A stretch of 64,000 nt of DNA, taken from assembly GCF_002944315.1 (NCBI RefSeq), contig NZ_CP024311.1:2518501-2582500 (forward strand). The letters run 5' to 3'. This document shows positions 18,726 to 54,856 of the stretch, one piece after another. A model generated the notes under the pieces. The model was not told where the DNA came from and did not search any database. It was given only the letters and a program-made list of their open reading frames with translations. Positions within the stretch are counted from its first letter, which is position 1. Each line of letters begins with the position of its first letter. A program made the translations under genes and the position numbers. The DNA is from Rhizobium sp. NXC24. Its GTDB lineage: Bacteria > Pseudomonadota > Alphaproteobacteria > Rhizobiales > Rhizobiaceae.

Positions 18726-20138
18726 TCATTTCGCCAGCGCCGGTTGGGCCATGTCCTGACCGGCGTTGATTATATCCAGTATCCTCTTCAGTAGAATTTG
18801 CGGCTTATAGTCCAGCCAGCCCGGCGTCAGCCCCATGCGCACCAGCACGAGATTGGCTGACGGCACAATGGCGACGCTCTGGCCATCATGTCCGAGCATC
18901 CAGAACGTATCCGTCGGCAGGCCGAACTGCGCATCCGAACCACCGGGACCGGCAAGCCAGGCTTGAACCTGCGTATAGATGCCTTCGGATGCCGTCGTCG
19001 GAGTGCGCATCGCGCCAACAAAGCCTTCCGGCAACAGGCGCTGGCCCTTCCAGACACCATCCTGCAGCAGGAATTGGCCAAAGCGCGCCCAGTCGCGCGG
19101 CGTCGCATAAAGATAGGAACTGCCGACATAAGTACCGCGCTCATCGGCTTCCAACACAGCGCTGAACATGCCGAGCGGCGCAAACAACGCTTCACGCGGA
19201 TAGGTGATCGCCGCACTCTCATTGGGAAGCTTGTTCATCCAAATCCGAGAGAGCAGCGTCGCCGTGCCGCTGGAATAGCTGAATCGTTCGCCTGCCGCCG
19301 CCTCTTGAGGCGCACTCGAGGCAACCCTGGTCGAATCCGGATCGAGATAGAGCATGCGCGTCACGTCTGAGACTGCGCCATATCCCTCATTGAAGGCCAA
19401 ACCGCTCTCCATGCTAAGGAGATCGCTGAGCTTGATGTTCTTGCGCGCGTCGGCACTCCATTGCGGCAAAAGATTCTGATCGTCGAAGGACATGCGGCCG
19501 GAAAGCATGAGGCGGCCGATGATGGCGGCATTGACGGTCTTCGTCATCGACCAGCCGATCAAAGGCGTGCCCTTGTCGAATCCCTCGCCATAGGTCTCCG
19601 CGATGATGCGGCCGTTCTTGACGACGACGATGGCGCGCATGGCGGGACCGGCAAAGTCCGGATTGGCAAGGAGCTTGGAGAGCGCGAGGCCGGTGTCGTC
19701 TTGGCCCAGCACGGCCTTATCGCCATCCGGCCAAGGAGAATCGCTTTTGGCCGCTTTGATCTTATTGAGGAACGCCGCGCTGCGCGCCGCCGGCAGATCG
19801 CCGTCCGGCACCGTCGTGCAGCCGAGCGCGCCGCGGTAGAGCGCATAGTTTGGTGCAAACATGCCGAGAAAGCGGGCGGTTACCACGCCTTCCTCTCGAT
19901 TGACCGAAACCCGAACGAGCTTCAGCGCCGGATTGCCCGGCGCCTGCACGTCATCCGCCAATATCCGCTCGGGATCGCGCTTGGCGATAAAGGTATTCGA
20001 GCAGACGATCTTGGCGGCATAGCCGTCCCCGACCCTCAACAATTCCGGTGGCCAGACCGAAAGCCAGACCGCACCGCCCGCGACAATGATCAGCAGCAAA
20101 AAAACAAGAGCCCCGACCACTCTCGATATTAAACGCAT
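18726..20138 (-). CDS. Serine hydrolase of the class C beta-lactamase/esterase family
   Basis: A 470-residue protein with an N-terminal membrane anchor or uncleaved signal (about residues 5-27) and a beta-lactamase-like domain. The nucleophile motif is SMTK (in IGWSMTKTVNAA). The second motif is YSSG rather than the usual YxN, and the third is HDGQ in place of KTG, patterns common in family VIII esterases and related periplasmic hydrolases rather than true beta-lactamases. The chosen ATG gives MRLISRVVGALVFLLL and has GGAGG upstream. Confidence 0.8.
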   Translation of the reverse strand: MRLISRVVGALVFLLLIIVAGGAVWLSVWPPELLRVGDGYAAKIVCSNTFIAKRDPERILADDVQAPGNPALKLVRVSVNREEGVVTARFLGMFAPNYALYRGALGCTTVPDGDLPAARSAAFLNKIKAAKSDSPWPDGDKAVLGQDDTGLALSKLLANPDFAGPAMRAIVVVKNGRIIAETYGEGFDKGTPLIGWSMTKTVNAAIIGRLMLSGRMSFDDQNLLPQWSADARKNIKLSDLLSMESGLAFNEGYGAVSDVTRMLYLDPDSTRVASSAPQEAAAGERFSYSSGTATLLSRIWMNKLPNESAAITYPREALFAPLGMFSAVLEADERGTYVGSSYLYATPRDWARFGQFLLQDGVWKGQRLLPEGFVGAMRTPTTASEGIYTQVQAWLAGPGGSDAQFGLPTDTFWMLGHDGQSVAIVPSANLVLVRMGLTPGWLDYKPQILLKRILDIINAGQDMAQPALAK

Positions 20139-20304
20139 ATCACACACCCTCCGAAGGAATGCGGAGACAATCAGGAAATGCAGGAATGTGAAAGACCTAT
20201 CGTCGCCACAGCCTTGCAAATATCACCGTGACGGCCCTACCGGCCGGGTCTGCCAACAGTCCACGTCATCAGACTGTAGCATTGCCGGGTTACACGCGCT
20301 GAAC

Positions 20305-20329: not shown

Positions 20330-21577
20330 ATGACGGAATTTGCCCCGGATGCCGGTCTCCACAAGAATCGGAAACTCAAGGACGCTCTGCTGCAACACAA
20401 GGCTCTGTCGAAGGCCGGCTTTTCGGAGCGCCTGTTCGGCATGTTGTTTTCCGGCCTTGTCTATCCGCAGATCTGGGAGGATCCGGATATCGACATGGAG
20501 GCGATGGAGCTGCAGCCGCACCACCGCATCGTCACAATCGGCTCGGGCGGCTGCAACATGCTCGCCTATCTTTCGCAGAACCCGGCTTCCATCGATGTCG
20601 TCGACCTCAATCGTCACCACATCGCGCTGAACAAGCTCAAGCTCGCCGCCTTCCGGCTGCTACCCGGACATGCCGATCTCGTGCGCTTCTTCGGCACGCC
20701 GGACGTTAGCGCCAATAGCCAGGCATACGATCAGTTCATCGCGCCGCGTCTCGATCCGGCGACCGCCGCTCACTGGGATGGCCGCGACATGTATGGCCGC
20801 CGCCGCGTCACGGTGTTCAACCGCAACATCTATAAGACCGGCCTGCTCGGCCGCTTCATCGGCGCCGCCCATGTGCTGGCCCGCCTGCACGGCGTCCGCC
20901 TCGGCAAGATGACGGAAGCCCGCACGGTCCGCGAACAGCGGCAGTTCTTCGACAACGAAATTGCGCCGATCTTCGACAAGCCGATGGTCCGCTGGCTACT
21001 CGGCCGTAAGAGCTCGCTTTTCGGCCTCGGCATCCCGCCGCAACAATATGACGAACTTGCGAGCCTCGCAGGTGACGATTCCATATCTGGCGTCCTGAAG
21101 CACCGCCTGGAAAAGCTGGCCTGCCACTTCCCGATGCGGGACAATTATTTCGCCTGGCAGGCCTTTGCGCGGCGCTATGCCTCCCAACACCAAGGCCCGT
21201 TGCCGACCTATCTGCGGCCTGAGCACTACGCCGCAATCCGCGCCAATGCCGACCGCGTCGATGTGCATCATGCCAACTTCACGGAGCTTCTGGCCTCCAA
21301 GCCCGCCGCTTCGCGCGACCGCTATATCCTGCTCGACGCCCAGGACTGGATGACCGACGAACAGCTCAACGACCTCTGGGCTGAAATTACCCGCACGGCC
21401 CGCGAAGGCGCCCGCGTCATTTTCCGCACCGCCGCCGAAAAGAGCATCATCGAAGGTCGCCTCTCCCCCGCCATTCGCGATCAGTGGGTCTATTTCGAAG
21501 AGCGCTCGCAGGAGCTTAACGTCCGCGACCGCTCGGCGATCTACGGCGGCTTCCACATCTACGGGAAAAAAGCGTGA
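20330..21577 (+). CDS. btaA: BtaA, SAM:diacylglycerol 3-amino-3-carboxypropyltransferase
   Basis: A 415-residue DUF3419 protein. It transfers the aminocarboxypropyl group of SAM to diacylglycerol, giving diacylglyceryl-homoserine, the first step to the betaine lipid DGTS, which replaces phospholipids under phosphate limitation. LVYPQIWEDPDIDMEAM and the SAM-binding segment VTIGSGGCNMLAYLSQNP followed by DVVDLNRHH are typical. It overlaps btaB by four bases (GTGA), and the pair has no other members. Phosphate control is expected from family knowledge. Confidence 0.93.
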   Translation: MTEFAPDAGLHKNRKLKDALLQHKALSKAGFSERLFGMLFSGLVYPQIWEDPDIDMEAMELQPHHRIVTIGSGGCNMLAYLSQNPASIDVVDLNRHHIALNKLKLAAFRLLPGHADLVRFFGTPDVSANSQAYDQFIAPRLDPATAAHWDGRDMYGRRRVTVFNRNIYKTGLLGRFIGAAHVLARLHGVRLGKMTEARTVREQRQFFDNEIAPIFDKPMVRWLLGRKSSLFGLGIPPQQYDELASLAGDDSISGVLKHRLEKLACHFPMRDNYFAWQAFARRYASQHQGPLPTYLRPEHYAAIRANADRVDVHHANFTELLASKPAASRDRYILLDAQDWMTDEQLNDLWAEITRTAREGARVIFRTAAEKSIIEGRLSPAIRDQWVYFEERSQELNVRDRSAIYGGFHIYGKKA

Positions 21578-22248
21578 GCCAGGCGGATACAGGTCTTCAG
21601 ACAAGCTCGAAGAACCATGCCGGACTGATGGACGGCATGTACCGTTACCAGCGGCACATCTACGACCTGACCCGCAAATATTACCTCTTCGGCCGCGATC
21701 GCACCATTGCGCACCTCAACGTGCCTTTGAGCGGCTCCCTACTGGAAGTGGGTTGCGGCACCGGCCGCAACATGTTGCTGGCTCATCGTCGCTTTCCCTC
21801 GGCGAGACTCTATGGCCTCGACATCTCCCAAGAGATGCTGATTTCGGCCCGCAATAATTTTCGCGGGCTGAAACAAGTACCGGATTTCCGCGTCGCCGAC
21901 GCCACTGCCTTCTCGGCTGGTGATTTCGGTGTCGACGGTTTCGATCGTGTCATGATTTCCTACGCACTCTCGATGATCCCGGACTGGAAGAGCGCGATCG
22001 ATGCTTCGCTGAACGCGGTCATTCCCGGCGGCGAACTGCACATCGTCGATTTCGGCCAACAGGAGCGCCTGCCTGGTTGGTTCCGCACCATGCTGAAAGG
22101 CTGGCTGACAAAGTTCCACGTCACCCCCCGCGCCGACCTCCGCGCCGTGCTCGAAGAGCGAGTCGCGGCGCGCGGCGCGAAGCTGGTATTCGAAGAAATC
22201 GGCCGGGGTTATGCATGGAGAGCTGTCGTCATTAAGCCGGCCGCCTAG
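21574..22248 (+). CDS. btaB: BtaB, diacylglyceryl-homoserine N-methyltransferase
   Basis: A 224-residue class I SAM methyltransferase. It trimethylates diacylglyceryl-homoserine to DGTS. Motif I is LLEVGCGTGRNMLLAH (about residues 49-64), followed by GLDISQEML and later the VDFGQQERLPGWFR region shared with BtaB. A GTG start overlaps the btaA stop. Identity depends on the pairing with BtaA, since the domain alone is a generic Methyltransf_11/25. A terminator-like hairpin follows about 100 bp downstream. Confidence 0.92.
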   Translation: MSQADTGLQTSSKNHAGLMDGMYRYQRHIYDLTRKYYLFGRDRTIAHLNVPLSGSLLEVGCGTGRNMLLAHRRFPSARLYGLDISQEMLISARNNFRGLKQVPDFRVADATAFSAGDFGVDGFDRVMISYALSMIPDWKSAIDASLNAVIPGGELHIVDFGQQERLPGWFRTMLKGWLTKFHVTPRADLRAVLEERVAARGAKLVFEEIGRGYAWRAVVIKPAA

Positions 22249-23338: not shown

Positions 23339-24583
23339 ATGGACCCCTATACCATTCGACGCAGCGCACTCGCGTTTGTCTTCGCTTCAGCCATGGCAAG
23401 TGTGGCAATGGCGCAGAACGCGACCCCGACCGCGGCGGCGAATGCAGGTGGAACCAATGCCCCGCAGGTGGCTTGCGGCGGTGATCTCTCTTCCTTCCTG
23501 GCCGGCGTCAAGGCCGAGGCCACCGCGGCTGGCGCGGATGCTGCGGCCGCGGACAAGACACTGGCCGGCGCGCAGATCGACCAGAAGGTCCTCGCTATGG
23601 ATCGTAGCCAGGGCGTATTCCGCCAGACCTTCCTCGAATTCTCGCAGCGCACTGTCAGCCAGGCCCGCCTCGACATCGGCCGCCAGAAGATAAAGCAGTA
23701 TGCCGACGTCTTCGCCAAGGCCGAGCAGGACTACGGCGTGCCGCCCGGCGTCATCACCGCCTATTGGGCGATGGAAACCGATTTTGGCGCCGTTCAGGGC
23801 AATTTCAACACCCGCAACGCGCTCGTTACTCTCTCGCACGACTGCCGGCGCCCCGAGTTTTTCCGCCCTCGTCTGATCGCATTCATTGAAATGGTGCAGC
23901 ATGGCGATGCCGATCCGGAAACCACGACCGGTGCATGGGCTGGCGAAATCGGCCAGACGCAGATGCTGCCGCCCTCGATCATTGCTTTCGGTGTTGATGG
24001 CGATGGCGACGGCCACGTCAATTTGAAGACAAGCGCGCCCGACGTCATTCTGACGACGGCCCGATACATCCAAAGCCTGGGCTTCCAGCGCGGCCAACCC
24101 TGGCTGCAGGAAGTCACGGTGCCGGATAATCTGCCTTGGGAGAAATCCGGCCTGGGCGGCCCACTCACGGCCGCCGACTGGTTCCAGCTAGGCGTCAAGC
24201 CGCGCGACGGTAACACCAATTTCGGTTCCCTGGCGGCCGCCCTCATCCTGCCGCAGGGCCGCAAAGGCCCGGCTTTCCTGACCTATCCGAACTACAACGC
24301 CTATCTGGAATGGAACCAGTCGTTCATCTACACGACGTCCGCAGCCTATTTCGCCACACGTTTTGCTGGCGCTCCAACCTATAACAAAGGCACACCGGAA
24401 GCGGGGCTGAACGATGTCGATATGAAAGCGCTTCAAACCAAGCTTTCGGCACGCGGCTACGATGTCGGCAAGATAGACGGTATTCTCGGCTCGGGCACGC
24501 GCGTCGCCGTTCAAAAAGAACAGTTTCGCCTCGGCCTTCCCGCTGACGGCTGGGCGACACAATCATTGCTGAACGCGCTTTAA
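23339..24583 (+). CDS. MltB-like lytic murein transglycosylase with C-terminal peptidoglycan-binding domain
   Basis: A 414-residue periplasmic protein. The signal peptide ends near VAMA-Q (about residue 25). The SLT_2/MltB domain (about 45-340) has its catalytic glutamate in YWAMETDFGAVQGN, followed by RPRLIAFIEM, the GEIGQTQMLPPSI substrate loop and a calcium-binding-like GVDGDGDGHVN. A PG_binding_1 domain ends the protein (about 352-412: LQTKLSARGYDVGKIDG). The chosen ATG follows AAAGAGGATCG. A strong terminator follows. Confidence 0.92.
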   Translation: MDPYTIRRSALAFVFASAMASVAMAQNATPTAAANAGGTNAPQVACGGDLSSFLAGVKAEATAAGADAAAADKTLAGAQIDQKVLAMDRSQGVFRQTFLEFSQRTVSQARLDIGRQKIKQYADVFAKAEQDYGVPPGVITAYWAMETDFGAVQGNFNTRNALVTLSHDCRRPEFFRPRLIAFIEMVQHGDADPETTTGAWAGEIGQTQMLPPSIIAFGVDGDGDGHVNLKTSAPDVILTTARYIQSLGFQRGQPWLQEVTVPDNLPWEKSGLGGPLTAADWFQLGVKPRDGNTNFGSLAAALILPQGRKGPAFLTYPNYNAYLEWNQSFIYTTSAAYFATRFAGAPTYNKGTPEAGLNDVDMKALQTKLSARGYDVGKIDGILGSGTRVAVQKEQFRLGLPADGWATQSLLNAL

Positions 24584-24628: not shown

Positions 24629-24748
24629 GTTTTTGCACCTGCAACTATCAGATGATTTTCCGGGTATCCGATCGAGGCTCGGCAAGAAACGGGTGGAAAG
24701 CGCCTCTGATTTCGTCAAAATAAACTCAAAATGGCGGAGGTGCAGCGG

Positions 24749-25675
24749 ATGAACACCAGCAATGGCATGAACGCACTGACCTGGAGCCTGCTGTTGGCGC
24801 TCGGCTTGATCTGGGGCGGTTCATTCTTCTTCGCCCGCATCGCCGTCCATTATGTGCCGCCGTTTACGCTGGTCTTCCTTCGCTTGTCGCTCGCGGCAAT
24901 AGCGCTGCATGCCTACATTGCCGGTCGTTTCGCAATCTATGATTTGCTGCGAACCCATTGGCGGCAGTTCCTATTGCTGGGCTTGATCAACAACGCCGTG
25001 CCGCATGCGCTGATCTTCGTCGGTCAAACCCAGATGGGTGCGGGGCTCGCATCCATTCTGAACGCAACGACGCCGATCTGGACCGTATTGATCGGCAATC
25101 ACTTCACCACCGACGAGCGGCTGACCTCCGCCAAGCTCGCCGGCTGCTTGACAGGGCTCGCCGGCACGATCGTGCTGCTCGGCCCAAGCGTGGCGAGTGG
25201 AGCCGAAGTTCCGCTCTGGGCGCTGCTGCTGCCAATCCTTGCCGCGATCTCCTACGGTTTCGCCGCGATCTATGCCAAGCGTTTCAAAGGCATGGCGCCG
25301 CCCGTTATCGCAGCAGGTCAACTGACCTGCTCCGCGGCGCTCATACTGCCGATGGCTCTTTTGCTGGATCAACCTTGGACATTGGCCACGCCACCAGCCA
25401 GCGCCCTCGCCGCCATTCTCGGCATGGCGCTGTTGTCGACGGCCTTCGCCTATATCCTCTATTTCCGCATCATGGCGCTCGCCGGCGCCACCAACGCCTC
25501 GCTGGTGACCCTGCTCGTACCGCCAAGCGCCATTCTCCTCGGCTTTCTCTTCCTCGGCGAACGCCTGGGACTGACGGAAATTGCCGGCATGCTGCTGATC
25601 GGCACAGGCCTGCTCATTCTCGACGGGCGGCTTTTCGCACGCCTGCGACCGAACGCGGGAACGGGTGACCTATAA
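24749..25675 (+). CDS. EamA/DMT-family transporter
   Basis: A 308-residue inner-membrane protein with about ten hydrophobic segments in two EamA repeats (about residues 10-140 and 155-295). It contains the family-typical LIWGGSFFFARIAV and FLFLGERLGLTEIAGMLLIGTGLL. Family members move small metabolites; no substrate can be assigned. I chose the second ATG, which has GGAGGTG 8 bases upstream, over the ATG at 24731. Its stop codon overlaps the convergent downstream gene by six bases. Confidence 0.88.
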   Translation: MNTSNGMNALTWSLLLALGLIWGGSFFFARIAVHYVPPFTLVFLRLSLAAIALHAYIAGRFAIYDLLRTHWRQFLLLGLINNAVPHALIFVGQTQMGAGLASILNATTPIWTVLIGNHFTTDERLTSAKLAGCLTGLAGTIVLLGPSVASGAEVPLWALLLPILAAISYGFAAIYAKRFKGMAPPVIAAGQLTCSAALILPMALLLDQPWTLATPPASALAAILGMALLSTAFAYILYFRIMALAGATNASLVTLLVPPSAILLGFLFLGERLGLTEIAGMLLIGTGLLILDGRLFARLRPNAGTGDL

Positions 25676-26560
25676 TTCGGCCGCAACGGCCCGCCGGACC
25701 AATCTGCCAAGCACTGACGGCACGATCAGGAAAAACGCGAAATAAAGGGTGGTCAGCACCGGCACCAAATAGACGACGGCACTCTCGTCTGGAGAAAGAC
25801 TGCCGAGATAGCCGAGGGCGGCCCAGATGATGGCCAGAGCCAGACAAGCGAACAGCCAGAGACGCCACAGATGCCCCTGTCGCAGCCTTTCGGCGCGCAT
25901 GAAGGGCGCGATTGCCGGAGCGAGCATGGCGCCAAACATCAACAGCAAACCACCAAGCTTATTCTCCGTCGCGCGCAACAACGCATAGAACGGGAGAAGA
26001 TACCAGGGCGACACGATCTGAAACGTATCTTCCGTCGGCAAATCGGGAAGGCTGAACAGACGGTTCATCGTCAGACCGAAAGCAATGCCGGAGACCACCG
26101 CCGCGACGCCAACCACGGCAAGGAAAATCATGATCCGACGCCAGGAGTGCCTTTGCCAGGTCGCATGATGCATGACGCCCAGATCGACGATCAGGAGCGC
26201 AAGCGACAGCACGATCTTGCAATCATAGCCCGTCACGGACCAGGCAGCCATGATGTTGCCAATCAACGGGAATTGCGCCAGCCAGAACTCCAACTGTCCC
26301 CAAGGCACCAGAAAGGAGAGGAAGGGTACCAGTTCCGACATCACCCAAACGCCGATCAGCAGGACCCACGGCACTTTCCGCCAGGCTGAGAAATCGCCGA
26401 TATAGATCGAAAAACCGATATGGATGAACAGCGCCAGATAAAATGTGCCGGTCAAGCTCAGCGCGCCGTTTCGCGCCGGAAGAAGCAAGCCGGCCAATAC
26501 GACAAGAACGAGGAAAAGACCGATATCGTGCGCTCGCGACCGATTTATCTCATCGCTCAT
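25670..26560 (-). CDS. Degenerate cytochrome b-like membrane protein retaining one haem-ligand pair
   Basis: A 296-residue polytopic protein whose sequence follows cytochrome b of the bc1 complex. FYLALFIHIGFSIYIGDF matches helix B, LVPWGQLEFW (residues 84-93) matches the LPWGQMSFW segment, VMHHATW matches helix D, and SPWYLLPFYALLRA (184-197) with NKLGG matches the PEWY/helix F region. The ligands equivalent to the high-potential haem are kept (His47; His131 or 132). The residues 14 positions earlier, which would hold the second haem, are not histidine. PEWY has become SPWY and the AB loop is missing. It is shorter than normal (about 400) and stands alone. Start could also be at 26617. Function unknown. 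Confidence 0.7.
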   Translation of the reverse strand: MSDEINRSRAHDIGLFLVLVVLAGLLLPARNGALSLTGTFYLALFIHIGFSIYIGDFSAWRKVPWVLLIGVWVMSELVPFLSFLVPWGQLEFWLAQFPLIGNIMAAWSVTGYDCKIVLSLALLIVDLGVMHHATWQRHSWRRIMIFLAVVGVAAVVSGIAFGLTMNRLFSLPDLPTEDTFQIVSPWYLLPFYALLRATENKLGGLLLMFGAMLAPAIAPFMRAERLRQGHLWRLWLFACLALAIIWAALGYLGSLSPDESAVVYLVPVLTTLYFAFFLIVPSVLGRLVRRAVAAEL

Positions 26561-26838: not shown

Positions 26839-26916
26839 ATGGGATTGACGCGATCCATCAACGTCCTAGTGGTCAGTGCAGCGTTCCTATTCGTTTTGAC
26901 GATGCTTTTCATCTGA
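26839..26916 (+). CDS. 25-residue hydrophobic micropeptide
   Basis: An ATG preceded by the near-perfect Shine-Dalgarno TAAGGAGG (26825-26832, six-base gap) opens a 25-codon frame ending in TGA. The product starts MGLTRSINVLVV and is then almost entirely hydrophobic (AAFLFVLTMLFI), so a single membrane helix with a short basic N-terminus is predicted. It is alone between a divergent gene and its own downstream bidirectional terminator. I cannot assign a function. Confidence comes from the ribosome-binding site and the isolated gene architecture. Confidence 0.6.
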   Translation: MGLTRSINVLVVSAAFLFVLTMLFI

Positions 26917-27034: not shown

Positions 27035-27937
27035 TCAGGCGGCGGCGCCGGCACGCGCATCTGCCCTGCGCTGTATGCCCAATCGCTCAAGAACGGCCGA
27101 GACCAGCGGCGAGCGGTTCATCGTATAGAGATGAAACTCATGAATGCCGCGACGAACCAGGTCCTCGATCTGCTCCGCGGCGACATCCGCAGCGACATTG
27201 GCCCGCTTGTCGGCCTGCTCGTCCAAGCCGTCAAAACGCTCGTCCAGCCAGGAAGGAATGTTGGTGCCGCAGGCGCCGGCAAACCGCTTTAATTGCGTCA
27301 AGTTCTGGATCGGCATGATACCCGGCACGACGGGAATCTTGATACCGGCGGCACGGACGCGGTCGTGATAACGTTCAAACGCGTCATTGTCGAAGAAGAA
27401 CTGGGTCAGCGCCCTGTTGGCGCCGTTATCGGCCTTGCGCTTCAGCATGTCGATATCGGCTGCTGTATCACGGCTCTCCGGATGTTTCTCCGGATAGGCG
27501 GAGACGGAAATATCGAAATCGCCGCGCTCGCGTAGTGCCAATACCAGCTCGGCCGCATTGGCGTAGCCGCCCGGATGCGGCTGGTAGGCGGAGCCGACCC
27601 CGCCCGGCGGGTCGCCACGCAACGCCACGAAACGGCGGGTGCCGGCGGCGAGCAAATCGTCGATGACACGATGCGTTTCCTCGCGCGTTGCCCCCACGCA
27701 GGTCAGATGCGAAGCAGTCGAGAACGGCGTCTCGTGGATCATCCGACGCACGGCAGACAATGTCGGCGCCTTGGTCGAACCACCCGCGCCATAGGTAACC
27801 GAGACAAAATCCGCGTCCCATTCGGCCAGATCAGCCACCGTGTTCCACAATTGCGTCTCGGCTTCGTCCGATTTCGGCGGGAAGAATTCGAAGGAAATAC
27901 GAATGCCACGCTGGCCGTTTTCAGTCTTTGAAGGCAT
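27035..27937 (-). CDS. metF: MetF, 5,10-methylenetetrahydrofolate reductase
   Basis: A 300-residue TIM-barrel flavoprotein that reduces methylene-THF to 5-methyl-THF, the methyl donor for MetH. Family motifs are FEFFPPKSDEAE (catalytic glutamate region), VSVTYGAGGST, HLTCVGATREE, ALRGDPPGG and TQFFFDNDAFERY. The ATG at 27937 has GGGAGAG upstream and starts one base after the stop of the ArsR-methyltransferase gene, so both are co-transcribed. Methionine-cycle control through that regulator is likely. Confidence 0.95.
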   Translation of the reverse strand: MPSKTENGQRGIRISFEFFPPKSDEAETQLWNTVADLAEWDADFVSVTYGAGGSTKAPTLSAVRRMIHETPFSTASHLTCVGATREETHRVIDDLLAAGTRRFVALRGDPPGGVGSAYQPHPGGYANAAELVLALRERGDFDISVSAYPEKHPESRDTAADIDMLKRKADNGANRALTQFFFDNDAFERYHDRVRAAGIKIPVVPGIMPIQNLTQLKRFAGACGTNIPSWLDERFDGLDEQADKRANVAADVAAEQIEDLVRRGIHEFHLYTMNRSPLVSAVLERLGIQRRADARAGAAA

Positions 27938-27938
27938 A

Positions 27939-28964
27939 TCAAGCTCTCCCGGCAAGAATGGGGGACGATTGGCGATCCTGCCCGGCGGCGATCAGCAGCC
28001 GCGGGTCGCGCGCCAGCCAGATCGTGACCGTCAGCGCTTGACCGCCTTCCTTCCCCGAATGAAGGTCCTGCACCTGTTCGACATCAAGCCCTGCCATTTT
28101 CAACCATTCCGATATGGTCTGATGCGAGAAACCGAGTCTCAGATGCGCATGTTCGTCGCGTAGATATTCCAGCCCGTGCGGCGCAAGATCGATGATCACC
28201 AGCCGGCCGCCGGGCCTGAGCATTCGCGCCGCCTCGTTAATGGCAATCTCCGGCTGGTCGAGGAAATGCAGCACCTGATGGATGGTAATCAGGTCGAAAT
28301 CCTGCGCCTCGAGCGGCAGGTTGAAAATGTCGCCATGCCGCACGGAAGCGGCGGTGATGTTTGAGCGGTCGAGATTGGCGCGCGCCACGGCCAACATGTC
28401 ACGGCTGGCGTCGATGCCGACCGCGCGGCGATAATGACCCGCCAACAATTGCAGCATACGGCCCGTGCCGGTGCCTAGATCCAGGAAAGAGTCGATCTGC
28501 TGCGGACCAATCAAGTCGATCAGCGCCTTGTCGACATCCTCGTCGGCCACATGCAGTCGGCGAAGCTCGTCCCATTCCGCAGCGTTGCGGCTGAAATAGG
28601 CCTGTGCCCGTTCCGCACGGACACGCTTGACGGCAGAAAGCCGCTCGCCATCCCGCAGCAACACCGGATCGTTTTCAGCCGTGTGGCGGAGAAGCGTGCG
28701 CACGAGGACGACCGCCTTGCCTTCCTGCTTCAGACGGAAATAGGCCCAGGCACCCTCCTGATAGCGGTCGATCAGGCCGGCCTCGCCGAGCAGCTTCAGA
28801 TGGCGGGAAATGCGGGGCTGCGACTGGCCGAGAATTTCGGTAAGATCCGTCACGGTGAGATCGCCAGCCGCAAGAAGCGCCAGCAGACGTAACCGCGTCG
28901 GCTCGCCGGCCGCCTTCAGTATGTCCACCAGATCATCCAAACCGAATTTCACGAGATCCGTCAT
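27939..28964 (-). CDS. ArsR-family regulator fused to a SAM-binding methyltransferase domain (SahR-like)
   Basis: A 341-residue protein. An N-terminal ArsR-type winged helix (about residues 8-95: AAGEPTRLRLLALLAAGDLTVTDLTEILGQSQPRISRHLKLLGEAGL) is joined to a Methyltransf_11-type Rossmann domain (about 140-300: SFLDLGTGTGRMLQLLAG, VGIDASRDML). Related regulators in Proteobacteria respond to S-adenosylhomocysteine and control methionine-cycle genes. The gene leads an operon with metF, and a perfect 16-bp palindrome lies just upstream. Whether the second domain catalyses or only senses SAH/SAM is open. Confidence 0.88.
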   Translation of the reverse strand: MTDLVKFGLDDLVDILKAAGEPTRLRLLALLAAGDLTVTDLTEILGQSQPRISRHLKLLGEAGLIDRYQEGAWAYFRLKQEGKAVVLVRTLLRHTAENDPVLLRDGERLSAVKRVRAERAQAYFSRNAAEWDELRRLHVADEDVDKALIDLIGPQQIDSFLDLGTGTGRMLQLLAGHYRRAVGIDASRDMLAVARANLDRSNITAASVRHGDIFNLPLEAQDFDLITIHQVLHFLDQPEIAINEAARMLRPGGRLVIIDLAPHGLEYLRDEHAHLRLGFSHQTISEWLKMAGLDVEQVQDLHSGKEGGQALTVTIWLARDPRLLIAAGQDRQSSPILAGRA

Positions 28965-28982
28965 CCAGCACCCAATCAAGAT

Positions 28983-29157: not shown

Positions 29158-30807
29158 TTATCGTGTCAGGCGCTTGTGCGCCTGGCTGCCCGGATTGAGA
29201 GCATCGGGGCCGAGGCGGCGGATCTTGTCTTGCTCGTAATCTTCGAAATTGCCTTCGAACCATTCAACATGGCCTTCGCCTTCAAAGGCCAGAATATGCG
29301 TGGCCAGGCGGTCGAGGAACATGCGATCATGGCTGATGATGATGGCGCAGCCAGCGAAGTTTTCGAGCGCGCTTTCCAGCGCCCCCAGCGTTTCCGTATC
29401 GAGGTCGTTGGTCGGTTCGTCGAGCAGAAGCACGTTGCCGCCAGCCTTCAGCATCTTGGCCAAGTGAACGCGGTTGCGCTGACCGCCGGAGAGATTGCCG
29501 ACCTTCTGCTGCTGGTCGCCGCCCTTGAAGTTGAAGGCACCGCAATAGGCGCGCGAGTTCATGTCGAACTTGCCGAGCTTGATGATTTCGGCGCCGCCGG
29601 AGATTTCCTCCCATACGGTCTTATTGCCGTCAAGCGCGTCGCGGCTCTGGTCGACATAGCTGAGATGCACTGTCTCGCCGATGCGGATCGAGCCGGAATC
29701 CGGCTTTTCCTGCCCGGTAATCATCTTGAACAGGGTCGTCTTGCCGGCGCCGTTCGGGCCGATGATGCCGACGATGCCGCCCGGCGGCAGCTTGATCGAC
29801 AGATCGTTGACCAGCGTGCGACCTTCGAAGCCCTTGGTGATGCCCTCCATCTCGATCACCACCTGGCCGAGACGCTCGCTGACCGGAATGATGATCTGCG
29901 CATCACCGGGGCGCTGATTTTCGGCAGCATCGACTAGCTGTTCGTAAGCGTTGATACGCGCCTTGGACTTGGCTTGACGGGCCTTGGGGCTGGAGGCGAT
30001 CCATTCCTGTTCGCGGCTGATTGCCTTCTGACGGCCAGCTTCTTCCCGGGCTTCCTGCAGCATGCGCTTGGCTTTGGCCTGCAGATAAGCGGAATAATTG
30101 CCTTCGTAGGGAATGCCACGACCGCGGTCGAGTTCGAGAATCCAGCCGGTAACATTGTCGAGGAAGTAACGGTCGTGGGTGATCATCATCACGGCACCCG
30201 GATAGTCGCGCAGGTGCTTTTCCAGCCAGGCGATGGTCTCGGCGTCGAGATGGTTGGTCGGTTCGTCGAGCAGCAGCAGGTCCGGCTGCGAGAGAAGCAA
30301 GCGGCAAAGCGCGATACGGCGGCGCTCACCGCCGGAAAGGCTGGTGACTTCGGCATCGCGCGGCGGGCAGCACAATGCTTCCATCGCCATCTCGACCTGG
30401 CTTTCCAGATCCCAGAGATTCTGGCTGTCGATGATATCCTGGAGTTTGGCGCCCTCGTCCGCCGTCTCGTCGGAATAGTTCATCATCAATTCGTTGTAGC
30501 GATTGAGGATTTCGGTTTTCTTGGCAACGCCTTCCATGACGTTTTCGAACACCGTCTTGTTGGGATCGAGCTGAGGCTCCTGCGCCAGGTAGCCGATAGT
30601 GGCGCCTTCGGCCAACCAGGCTTCGCCAGTATATTCCTTGTCGAGGCCGGCCATGATGCGCAGCACGGTCGACTTACCGGCACCGTTCGGGCCGAGAATG
30701 CCGATCTTGGCGTCGGGATAAAAAGAGAGATGAATATTTTCGAGGATCTTCTTGGCGCCATAGGCCTTATTTAGACCGGCCATATGATAGATGAACTGAC
30801 GTGCCAT
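29158..30807 (-). CDS. ettA: EttA, energy-dependent translational throttle ABC-F ATPase
   Basis: A 549-residue cytosolic protein with two ABC cassettes and no membrane domain. Cassette 1 has GPNGAGKST (about residues 39-47), signature SLSGGERRR and LLLDEPTNHLD. Cassette 2 has GPNGAGKTT (about 351-359), NLSGGQRNR and LLLDEPTNDLD. The charged inter-domain linker (about 240-320) is the ABC-F P-site tRNA interaction motif. EttA binds the ribosomal E site and gates the first elongation step according to ATP/ADP. It appears monocistronic with its own terminator. Confidence 0.93.
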   Translation of the reverse strand: MARQFIYHMAGLNKAYGAKKILENIHLSFYPDAKIGILGPNGAGKSTVLRIMAGLDKEYTGEAWLAEGATIGYLAQEPQLDPNKTVFENVMEGVAKKTEILNRYNELMMNYSDETADEGAKLQDIIDSQNLWDLESQVEMAMEALCCPPRDAEVTSLSGGERRRIALCRLLLSQPDLLLLDEPTNHLDAETIAWLEKHLRDYPGAVMMITHDRYFLDNVTGWILELDRGRGIPYEGNYSAYLQAKAKRMLQEAREEAGRQKAISREQEWIASSPKARQAKSKARINAYEQLVDAAENQRPGDAQIIIPVSERLGQVVIEMEGITKGFEGRTLVNDLSIKLPPGGIVGIIGPNGAGKTTLFKMITGQEKPDSGSIRIGETVHLSYVDQSRDALDGNKTVWEEISGGAEIIKLGKFDMNSRAYCGAFNFKGGDQQQKVGNLSGGQRNRVHLAKMLKAGGNVLLLDEPTNDLDTETLGALESALENFAGCAIIISHDRMFLDRLATHILAFEGEGHVEWFEGNFEDYEQDKIRRLGPDALNPGSQAHKRLTR

Positions 30808-53332: not shown

Positions 53333-54061
53333 TCATCCCAAATCGACGTTGAAGGTCACCCGCTCCGCCGACCATAAAGTCTCGGAATAGGTAATGGGCG
53401 CACCATCGTTATCGACATCCACTTTGAGAACGACCAATACCGGTGTTGACTTCGGCTGCCGCAACAACCGCGCCTCCTCGGCATTCGGCATGCGCGCCTC
53501 AATCTCGGTCGATAGGCGCACATAGTCGTGGACGCCGTAGCTCGCGAGTGCTGCGGTAATGGTCTGATATTGCAGCCTCGCCTTGTCGAAATCCGGAAAT
53601 CGGTCAGCCGGATAGTAGGTGTCGCCAAGTTCGACGGGCACTCCATCCGCCGTCATGACACCGCGGCGATGGATGACCGGCGCGCCAAGCGCAAGCCTCA
53701 GCCGCGCCGCGACAAGCTCGGATGCCGGGACGACCTCGTGGATCAATAATTCGCCGCCAGGCTCGAAACCTTGCTCGATCAAATTCTGGGAGAACCGCGT
53801 CTTCTTCGAGAGCCTATAGTCGAGAGCCCCTCTGTGAACGAAGGTCCCTCGCCCCTGCTCCGCGCGCACCAATCCCCGCTGCTCCAAATGGCCGAGCGCC
53901 TGGCGGACAGTGAAACGGCTAACACCGAAACGTTGCATGAGTTCAGGTTCGGTCGGCAATTTGGCGCCCGGAGCAAAGGTCCCGGTGGCGATATCCGCCG
54001 CCAGGATTTCGCCGATCTGATGCCAGAGAGCACTGCCGCTCTTGCGATCGATCGTTTCCAT
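53333..54061 (-). CDS. GntR/HutC-family regulator, PhnF-like
   Basis: A 242-residue regulator. The N-terminal GntR winged helix (about residues 10-75: LWHQIGEILAADIATGTFAPGAKLPTEPELMQRFGVSRFTVRQALGHLEQRGLV) is followed by a UTRA effector domain (about 95-240). The length and the SRFTVRQALGHLEQRGLVRAEQGRGTFV region resemble PhnF regulators of phosphonate genes, but no phosphonate genes are adjacent. It starts 1 bp after the methyltransferase stop, so the two form an operon. Confidence 0.82.
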   Translation of the reverse strand: METIDRKSGSALWHQIGEILAADIATGTFAPGAKLPTEPELMQRFGVSRFTVRQALGHLEQRGLVRAEQGRGTFVHRGALDYRLSKKTRFSQNLIEQGFEPGGELLIHEVVPASELVAARLRLALGAPVIHRRGVMTADGVPVELGDTYYPADRFPDFDKARLQYQTITAALASYGVHDYVRLSTEIEARMPNAEEARLLRQPKSTPVLVVLKVDVDNDGAPITYSETLWSAERVTFNVDLG

Positions 54062-54062
54062 A

Positions 54063-54749
54063 TCAGATGCGCTTTTCGAGCCGGAACAGGAGCTTGTATT
54101 CAGCAGGATAGCTCAGCGCGTCGAGAATGCTCGGATAATATTTGCGATCCTTCGATCCGCTGACGAAGCCGCTATAGCCGAAACGCCGAACGGAAACATC
54201 GAAGCCGGCGGCTGCGAAGGCATCGATATAGTCCTGCGGAGAGCGATCCTGCACCGGCGCATTGCTGTTGCCGCCGATCAATTCGCGCCACTTCGGCCAA
54301 AGCGGCATTTCGTTGTGGCAACCGGTGACGGCGTAATAGACACCGCCATTGCGCATGACCTCGAACATCTGCTCGGCATGCCGCTTCAACTCCGGCAGCA
54401 GGTAAACGACCTCATAGCTGAATGCGACATCGAAGCTATCGGCAAAAGGCGAAAGATCGGTGGTGACTTGAAACTGCAGCGGCATGTTGCCCTTGGCCGC
54501 CACAGCCGCCGCAACCGATTCCGAAGCAATGTCGATGCCGACGCCGCGACGGAACGGCCGCATCGCATGAAGCAGCCGCAGAAAGCCGCCGCGATTGCAG
54601 CCAAAATCCAGCACCGTTTTCGACGAAAAATCCCGCTCTGGCACGCTCTCGATGAAATGCCGCCAATAGGGGCTGTGCGATTCCGCCATCGCAATGTCAC
54701 CATTCGGTTCGGTATGCCAAGTTGCATAAGTGGTTGCTGCATTTGTCAT
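54063..54749 (-). CDS. Class I SAM-dependent methyltransferase
   Basis: A 228-residue methyltransferase. SAM motif I VLDFGCNRGGFLRLLHA (about residues 46-62), GVGIDIASESV, and a motif IV-like FDVAFSYEVVYLLPEL. The acceptor is unknown. It is coupled to the PhnF-like regulator. The ATG at 54749 is preceded by a weak GAGCG element; a longer frame starting near 54809 is possible but less typical. The 54750-54912 gap holds the terminator of the next gene. Confidence 0.78.
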   Translation of the reverse strand: MTNAATTYATWHTEPNGDIAMAESHSPYWRHFIESVPERDFSSKTVLDFGCNRGGFLRLLHAMRPFRRGVGIDIASESVAAAVAAKGNMPLQFQVTTDLSPFADSFDVAFSYEVVYLLPELKRHAEQMFEVMRNGGVYYAVTGCHNEMPLWPKWRELIGGNSNAPVQDRSPQDYIDAFAAAGFDVSVRRFGYSGFVSGSKDRKYYPSILDALSYPAEYKLLFRLEKRI

Positions 54750-54856
54750 GATGCGCTCGCTGTTGGTGTTGACTGAGCGAGTGATAGCGCACCTCTGTGA
54801 CAGGCACATGAATTCGTCCGGACGACTGGATCACTTTAGGGCCAATCGCTGGACAA

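Follow-up and report, generated by a model that had tools for sequence, protein, structure and literature searches.

cytbL of Rhizobium sp. NXC24, a shortened stand-alone homologue of cytochrome b with altered haem and quinone sites

The cytbL gene and its closest described relatives

The cytochromes b of bc1 complexes are the reference for cytbL, a gene found in a window of 64,000 nucleotides from Rhizobium sp. NXC24 (contig NZ_CP024311.1, positions 2,518,501 to 2,582,500). The cytbL protein shares with them the fold, the helix order, the helix-B ligand of haem bH, Arg61 and Trp65, and the LPFYAxLR stretch after the Qo motif. It differs in its length of 296 residues, against 424 in the ordinary cytochrome b of the same genome ("own canonical" below), in having neither bL ligands nor AB loop nor the glutamate of PEWY, in a shortened DE loop and in a changed second bH ligand and bH pocket, and its gene does not adjoin those for a Rieske protein and cytochrome c1. 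On balance, cytbL is probably a haem-free derivative of cytochrome b working outside the Q cycle; it would then be a non-redox membrane protein.

A free-standing cytochrome b paralogue is known from Streptomyces coelicolor, where QcrB3 is encoded apart from the qcr-cta genes and shifts the respiratory complexes (PMC7931247). Unlike cytbL, this protein, listed at 61 kDa, is full-length and presumably has both haem sites; it shares 55% identity with QcrB, for which it has been suggested as a possible substitute. For cytochrome b6f subunit IV, cytbL gives a partial match to TIGR01156 far below the cut-off (23.1 against 127.05 bits), and unlike that subunit it holds both halves in one shortened chain. 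Searches of the open-licence literature, PMC4013037, PMC9162462, PMC4807273 and PMC7931247 included, turned up no account of a shortened family of this kind. Full-text searches of open-licence PMC papers yielded no cytochrome b devoid of its haem sites and kept by selection.

The reading frame and the two landmarks by which the first-pass annotation had recognised a stand-alone cytochrome b homologue, LVPWGQLEFW and SPWYLLPFYALLRA, are present as described, and the start codon is backed by alignment with the N-termini of relatives. Of the two Pfam profiles suggested as a check, Cytochrom_B_C (PF00032) matches above its cut-off (6.1e-15, 55.8 bits against 20.7) and Cytochrome_B (PF00033), the N-terminal haem domain, stays below it (3.2e-4, 21 bits against 27.2). 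Cytochromes b of the PDB match with a best E of 1.6e-17, profile-against-profile comparison (hhalign) with canonical cytochrome b gives an E of 2.1e-43, and structure prediction, which had been named as a test of the homology, returns the cytochrome b fold. The gene is thus genuine and intact, and encodes a stand-alone homologue of the cytochrome b of bc1.

The genome (7.3 Mb, four contigs) contains two PF00032 matches, cytbL and, at C1:2723610, a frame of 425 residues in a locus that encodes c1 too. Its sole Rieske N-terminal match (C1:2725214) lies just upstream of this canonical cytochrome b and its sole c1 match (C1:2722607) just downstream, so that there is one ordinary Rieske/cytochrome b/c1 set about 180 kb from cytbL. 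This agrees with the earlier remark that neither partner gene is near. In six-frame translations of the window (open reading frames of at least 90 residues) no Rieske motif was found. Two frames carry a CxxCH motif (54021-54773, plus strand; 23390-24187, minus strand, antisense to a lytic transglycosylase gene), and both are ruled out as cytochrome c1 because the single genomic c1 match sits at C1:2722607. No redox partner gene was recognised adjoining cytbL, and its neighbours vary from lineage to lineage.

Haem and quinone sites

Sites were compared between 24 short members of the family, in which cytbL is row P0001, and 28 canonical rows (the own gene plus 27 found; 5 or 7 of these in some alignments, trees and site counts). 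The register is clear for helices B and C (z 4.1 and 6.6). His47 takes the place of the helix-B bH ligand (own canonical His110) and is histidine in all short members, the canonical rows having His in 27 and Asn in one. At the position of own Gly131, which we take to line haem bH and which is Gly in all canonical rows, the short members carry Leu (21, among them Leu68 of cytbL), Met (2) or Val (1). Own Arg113 (R. sphaeroides Arg114), three residues after the ligand, presumably serves, like DE-loop residues, the bH propionates or the Qi site; here the short members have Phe (22, Phe50 in cytbL), Val (1) or Ile (1), against Arg in 24 and Thr in four canonical rows. The position of own Gly145 is Gly in 17, Ser in four, Ala in two and Arg in one. 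In the B-C region Trp65 is found in 24 and Arg61 in 23 short members, and in the C-terminal half Tyr192, Leu195, Gly204, Leu249 and Phe277 are constant.

The loss of the bL site, of the AB loop and of the Qo motif, all reported at first pass, holds up. Own His96 and His197, the bL ligands, are without a histidine counterpart in cytbL, in which Ala33 stands 14 residues before His47 and Val117 14 before His131. The two helix-D haem histidines are His in 28/28 canonical rows each; in R. capsulatus His212 is assigned to bH and His198 to bL (PMC4807273). Between helix A and His47, cytbL has about 26 residues fewer than the own canonical protein, and by eye this stretch is shortened by varying amounts in the other short rows. 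PEWY, a motif of which variants exist, has become SPWY, and its glutamate is absent in 19 of the short members (Pro 8, Gln 6, Asp 2, Asn 2, Ser 1, with Glu in the other five). In cytbL the Qi site is changed as well in its helix-D and DE-loop residues, own Asn222 (Asn in every canonical row) being deleted and own Lys244/Asp245, the Qi pair, lying opposite His138/Ser139. The Qi histidine (His in 20 and Arg in eight canonical rows) may be kept as His131, as judged from the alignments.

The second bH ligand depends on the register of helix D. The candidates in cytbL are Asp126, which we favour as the counterpart of own canonical His211 (R. capsulatus 212), and His131, which would then correspond to the Qi-site histidine (own canonical His216). 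The weightiest argument is that residue 126 is polar in all 24 members within a membrane helix (Asp 15, Asn 5, Ser 4) and that histidine occurs at residue 131 in no more than 13 (otherwise Phe in six, Gln in three, Asn in one and Asp in one), so that 126 is the one expected to face His47. When helix D of the 24 members was scored ungapped against the canonical profile, the sums were 50.5 for Asp126 as bH ligand, 27.8 for the register three residues away and -32.0 for His131 as ligand. Both MAFFT (29 rows) and L-INS-i (28 rows) align Asp126 with the bH ligand and His131 with the Qi histidine, the clearest case being P0053, in which DMWVAH aligns to canonical HIWALH. In seven of the members a proline stands exactly 10 residues before position 126, just as own Pro201, almost invariant in canonical rows, stands before His211.

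Several observations weigh against this assignment. On a membrane-helix background the three sums keep their order and all become negative (-42.6, -65.3 and -125.0), therefore no register fits well. Scored singly, nine members vote for Asp126, seven for the register three away, four for His131 and four for positions elsewhere; the four for His131 are P0001, P0002, P0003 and P0008, in the first three of which, we think, mainly because His then meets His. An earlier scan of 20 members ended in a tie, hhalign gives a register one residue off, and in a fragment model the end of helix D is nearer the His131 register, weakly and with poor alignments. On the whole Asp126, not His131, is probably the equivalent of the second bH ligand. 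The first-pass annotation had seen the high-potential haem histidines kept in FIHI and VMHH; this stands for His47, while His131/132 of VMHH are probably, though not certainly, no counterparts of a haem ligand (50.5 against -32.0).

Taken together, the alignments suggest a rare group of shortened cytochrome b paralogues that would have departed from the bc1 complex while retaining the fold, chiefly the N-side part of helices B and C along with the C-terminal helices. With both bL ligands gone, and with them the AB loop, the Qo glutamate, the Qi residues of the DE loop and the accessory residues of the bH pocket, the protein probably binds no haem. His47 of helix B and Asp/Asn/Ser126 of helix D would then meet as a buried polar pair replacing the cofactor. 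Such a protein would have no part as electron carrier in a Q cycle; most plausibly, in our view, it might have an accessory role, using the emptied cofactor cavity or the former protein-contact surfaces to bind a lipophilic ligand or a partner, and a repurposed quinone-binding protein, as proposed at first pass, is a possible role.

The other first-pass proposal, a single-haem membrane cytochrome in which His47 and His131 hold bH without bL and electrons pass between the quinone pool and an N-side partner, appears unlikely. His47 is universal, His131 is found in 13 members, the window protein among them, the individual votes of P0001-P0003 and P0008 agree with it and the helix end of the fragment model is compatible. 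His47 is, however, the only secure part of the bH site: the pocket glycine and arginine are replaced in every member, His131 is absent in 11 of them, implying at least three changes on a tree of 21 members, and the family-wide register favours Asp126. The Qo glutamate and the Qi residues are lost too, and a partner gene is not recognised nearby. If cytbL did bind one haem, it would offer a natural model of the bH site in minimal form. If instead it is empty, the cytochrome b fold is separable from its cofactors, and cytbL would be a simple system for what the fold does without them, in which the conserved residues could be sorted into those for folding and those for electron transfer.

Distribution and evolution of the short form

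Short members were collected by genome searches and by single-sequence and profile searches of 5.8 billion proteins, each limited to scoring the roughly 8000 candidates with the most shared words. The 24 members are P0001-P0008, P0034-P0039, P0050, P0051, P0053 and the genes at L023, L144-L148 and L199, P0003 being cut at a contig end and P0049 being the same protein as L199; P0052, a piece of 187 residues, was excluded. Named sources include a Bradyrhizobium metagenome-assembled genome (L023), Ahrensia sp. (P0038) and a Rhizobiaceae metagenome-assembled genome (P0003). Canonical rows P0016, P0022, P0026, P0029, P0030, P0031 and P0041 were not used, nor were the canonical hits of one later protein search or, except the own one, the canonical genes in surveyed loci. 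In trees the short rows form a single branch, both with 20 short and 28 canonical rows (support 100/99) and with 21 and 7 (100/100), and both trees carry long-branch warnings.

The family is rare in the samples. Among 61 genomes (37 of the genus, counting the own genome, and 24 from elsewhere in the order) the short form is present in the own genome and in G003 only. Of 397 genomes sampled from the order five match (A4 profile, E 1e-55) and four of these have short forms, because the 427-residue frame of G776 is by its length an ordinary cytochrome b. In 385 genomes of the class it was found in the own genome and in G949, of another order, and in the family sample 12 of 394 match (A1 profile, 1e-30), with a short frame in three (own, G238 and G168). 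These strict profile cut-offs may overlook more distant short members.

Between the window and G003, in which cytbL adjoins the same transporter gene, the ratio of nonsynonymous to synonymous divergence (dN/dS, NG86) is 0.27, against 0.05-0.15 for five neighbouring genes. The dS of 1.05 is in the range of these neighbours (0.68-1.10), and the two copies therefore look as old as the species split. In a second pair, from the genus of G238 and G168, dN/dS is 0.13 against 0.02-0.055 for four neighbours. cytbL thus looks to be under relaxed purifying selection, with rapid protein change that is still constrained. The location of the gene was followed by means of metF, which was found in 30 of 31 genomes of the genus searched (G003 being the exception). 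In the 29 besides the own one no trace of cytbL was detected within 1.5 kb of metF (tblastn, E 0.1), the next gene being the transporter in 21 and the lytic transglycosylase in eight; cytbL is therefore an extra gene at an otherwise constant place.

In genus g158, of which five genomes were examined, G571, G543 and G617 have cytbL between ettA and an HSP70-like gene (Pfam). The three copies are only 33-42% identical, with dS near saturation (1.67-3.10), in contrast to the five flanking genes, which are 89-100% identical with dS of 0.21-0.55. DNA similarity breaks off no more than about 23 bases from the ettA stop and returns past cytbL, with patches of 68-71% inside the gene. In G474 ettA directly adjoins the HSP70-like gene, and in G510 no cytbL match was obtained. 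Since the copies are deeply diverged between similar flanks, they probably predate the species, being either replaced alleles or ancient duplicates of which different ones were lost. In this genus the site between ettA and the HSP70-like gene is itself variable: the flanks are similar, but the DNA that they enclose (about 2.1, 1.1, 1.1 and 0.2 kb in L144, L145, L146 and L193) is unrelated or strongly diverged. After cytbL, the variable stretch of G571 has an extra frame for a putative lipoprotein of 270 residues (L144:10044-10853, plus strand) without a Pfam or PADLOC match, and those of G543 and G617 are too short for this frame.

A speculative extension is that these proteins are "empty" cytochromes b, in which the iron site of bH has given way to a direct, cofactor-free contact of buried His with Asp, Asn or Ser, and whose alleles, in one genus deeply split at a fixed locus between sister species, would fit an arms race, for example that of a decoy for agents attacking bc1. 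No natural cytochrome b is known to us in which selection maintains the protein after loss of the haem sites. Quite improbable, in our view, is a protective or regulatory paralogue that mimics the cytochrome b surface and titrates an inhibitor or toxin attacking bc1, or that joins and modulates respiratory complexes. The core residues kept in the C-terminal half of every member would suit it, as would one genus with very different alleles at the same spot in three species, as under changing selection, and QcrB3 is a precedent for a free-standing paralogue affecting respiratory complexes, albeit a full-length one close to QcrB. However, no toxin, inhibitor or interaction is known, and the allele pattern comes from a single genus, the dS of the window-G003 pair being ordinary. 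Decay of a functionless paralogue, which fast protein evolution, the loss of most known sites and the patchy presence might suggest, is very improbable, as both dN/dS values are below 1, the genomic copies were found without internal stops (the protein-database entries being open by construction) and residues are constant over 24 members.

Neighbouring genes in the window

The positions of cytbL, of its discussed sites and of its neighbours are collected in Table 1.

Table 1. Features at and around cytbL (positions in the window)
Feature	Position	Strand	Remarks
EamA/DMT-type transporter	24731..25675	plus	Pfam EamA 2e-36; convergent with cytbL, overlaps its stop
cytbL, cytochrome-b-like gene	25670..26560	minus	296 residues and TAG stop; ATG start at 26560
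SPWY in place of PEWY	26000..26011	minus	Qo motif
His131 codon	26168..26170	minus	favoured counterpart of Qi-site histidine
Asp126 codon	26183..26185	minus	favoured counterpart of second bH ligand
Leu68 codon	26357..26359	minus	replaces bH-pocket glycine
His47 codon	26420..26422	minus	helix-B bH ligand
Small open reading frame MGLTRSINVLVVSAAFLFVLTMLFI	26839..26916	plus	25 residues, conserved; between metF and cytbL
metF-like gene	27035..27955	minus	upstream of cytbL; named by eye from sequence
ArsR-type regulator fused to methyltransferase	27939..28979	minus	Pfam HTH_5 and Methyltransf_11
ABC-F ATPase, ettA-like	29158..30807	minus	named by eye from sequence

The small frame MGLTRSINVLVVSAAFLFVLTMLFI is a neighbour outside the cytbL finding. 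It encodes a hydrophobic microprotein that looks like a conserved small membrane protein, and it is kept in 30/30 metF loci of the genus, just one of which has cytbL. Farther off, two adjacent genes at 20330-22248 (plus strand) resemble by eye the betaine-lipid pair btaA/btaB. The minus-strand gene at 18726-20219 codes for a serine hydrolase that belongs to Pfam family Beta-lactamase (PF00144, 2.6e-21), and such a hydrolase adjoins the btaA-like gene both in the window and in L149.
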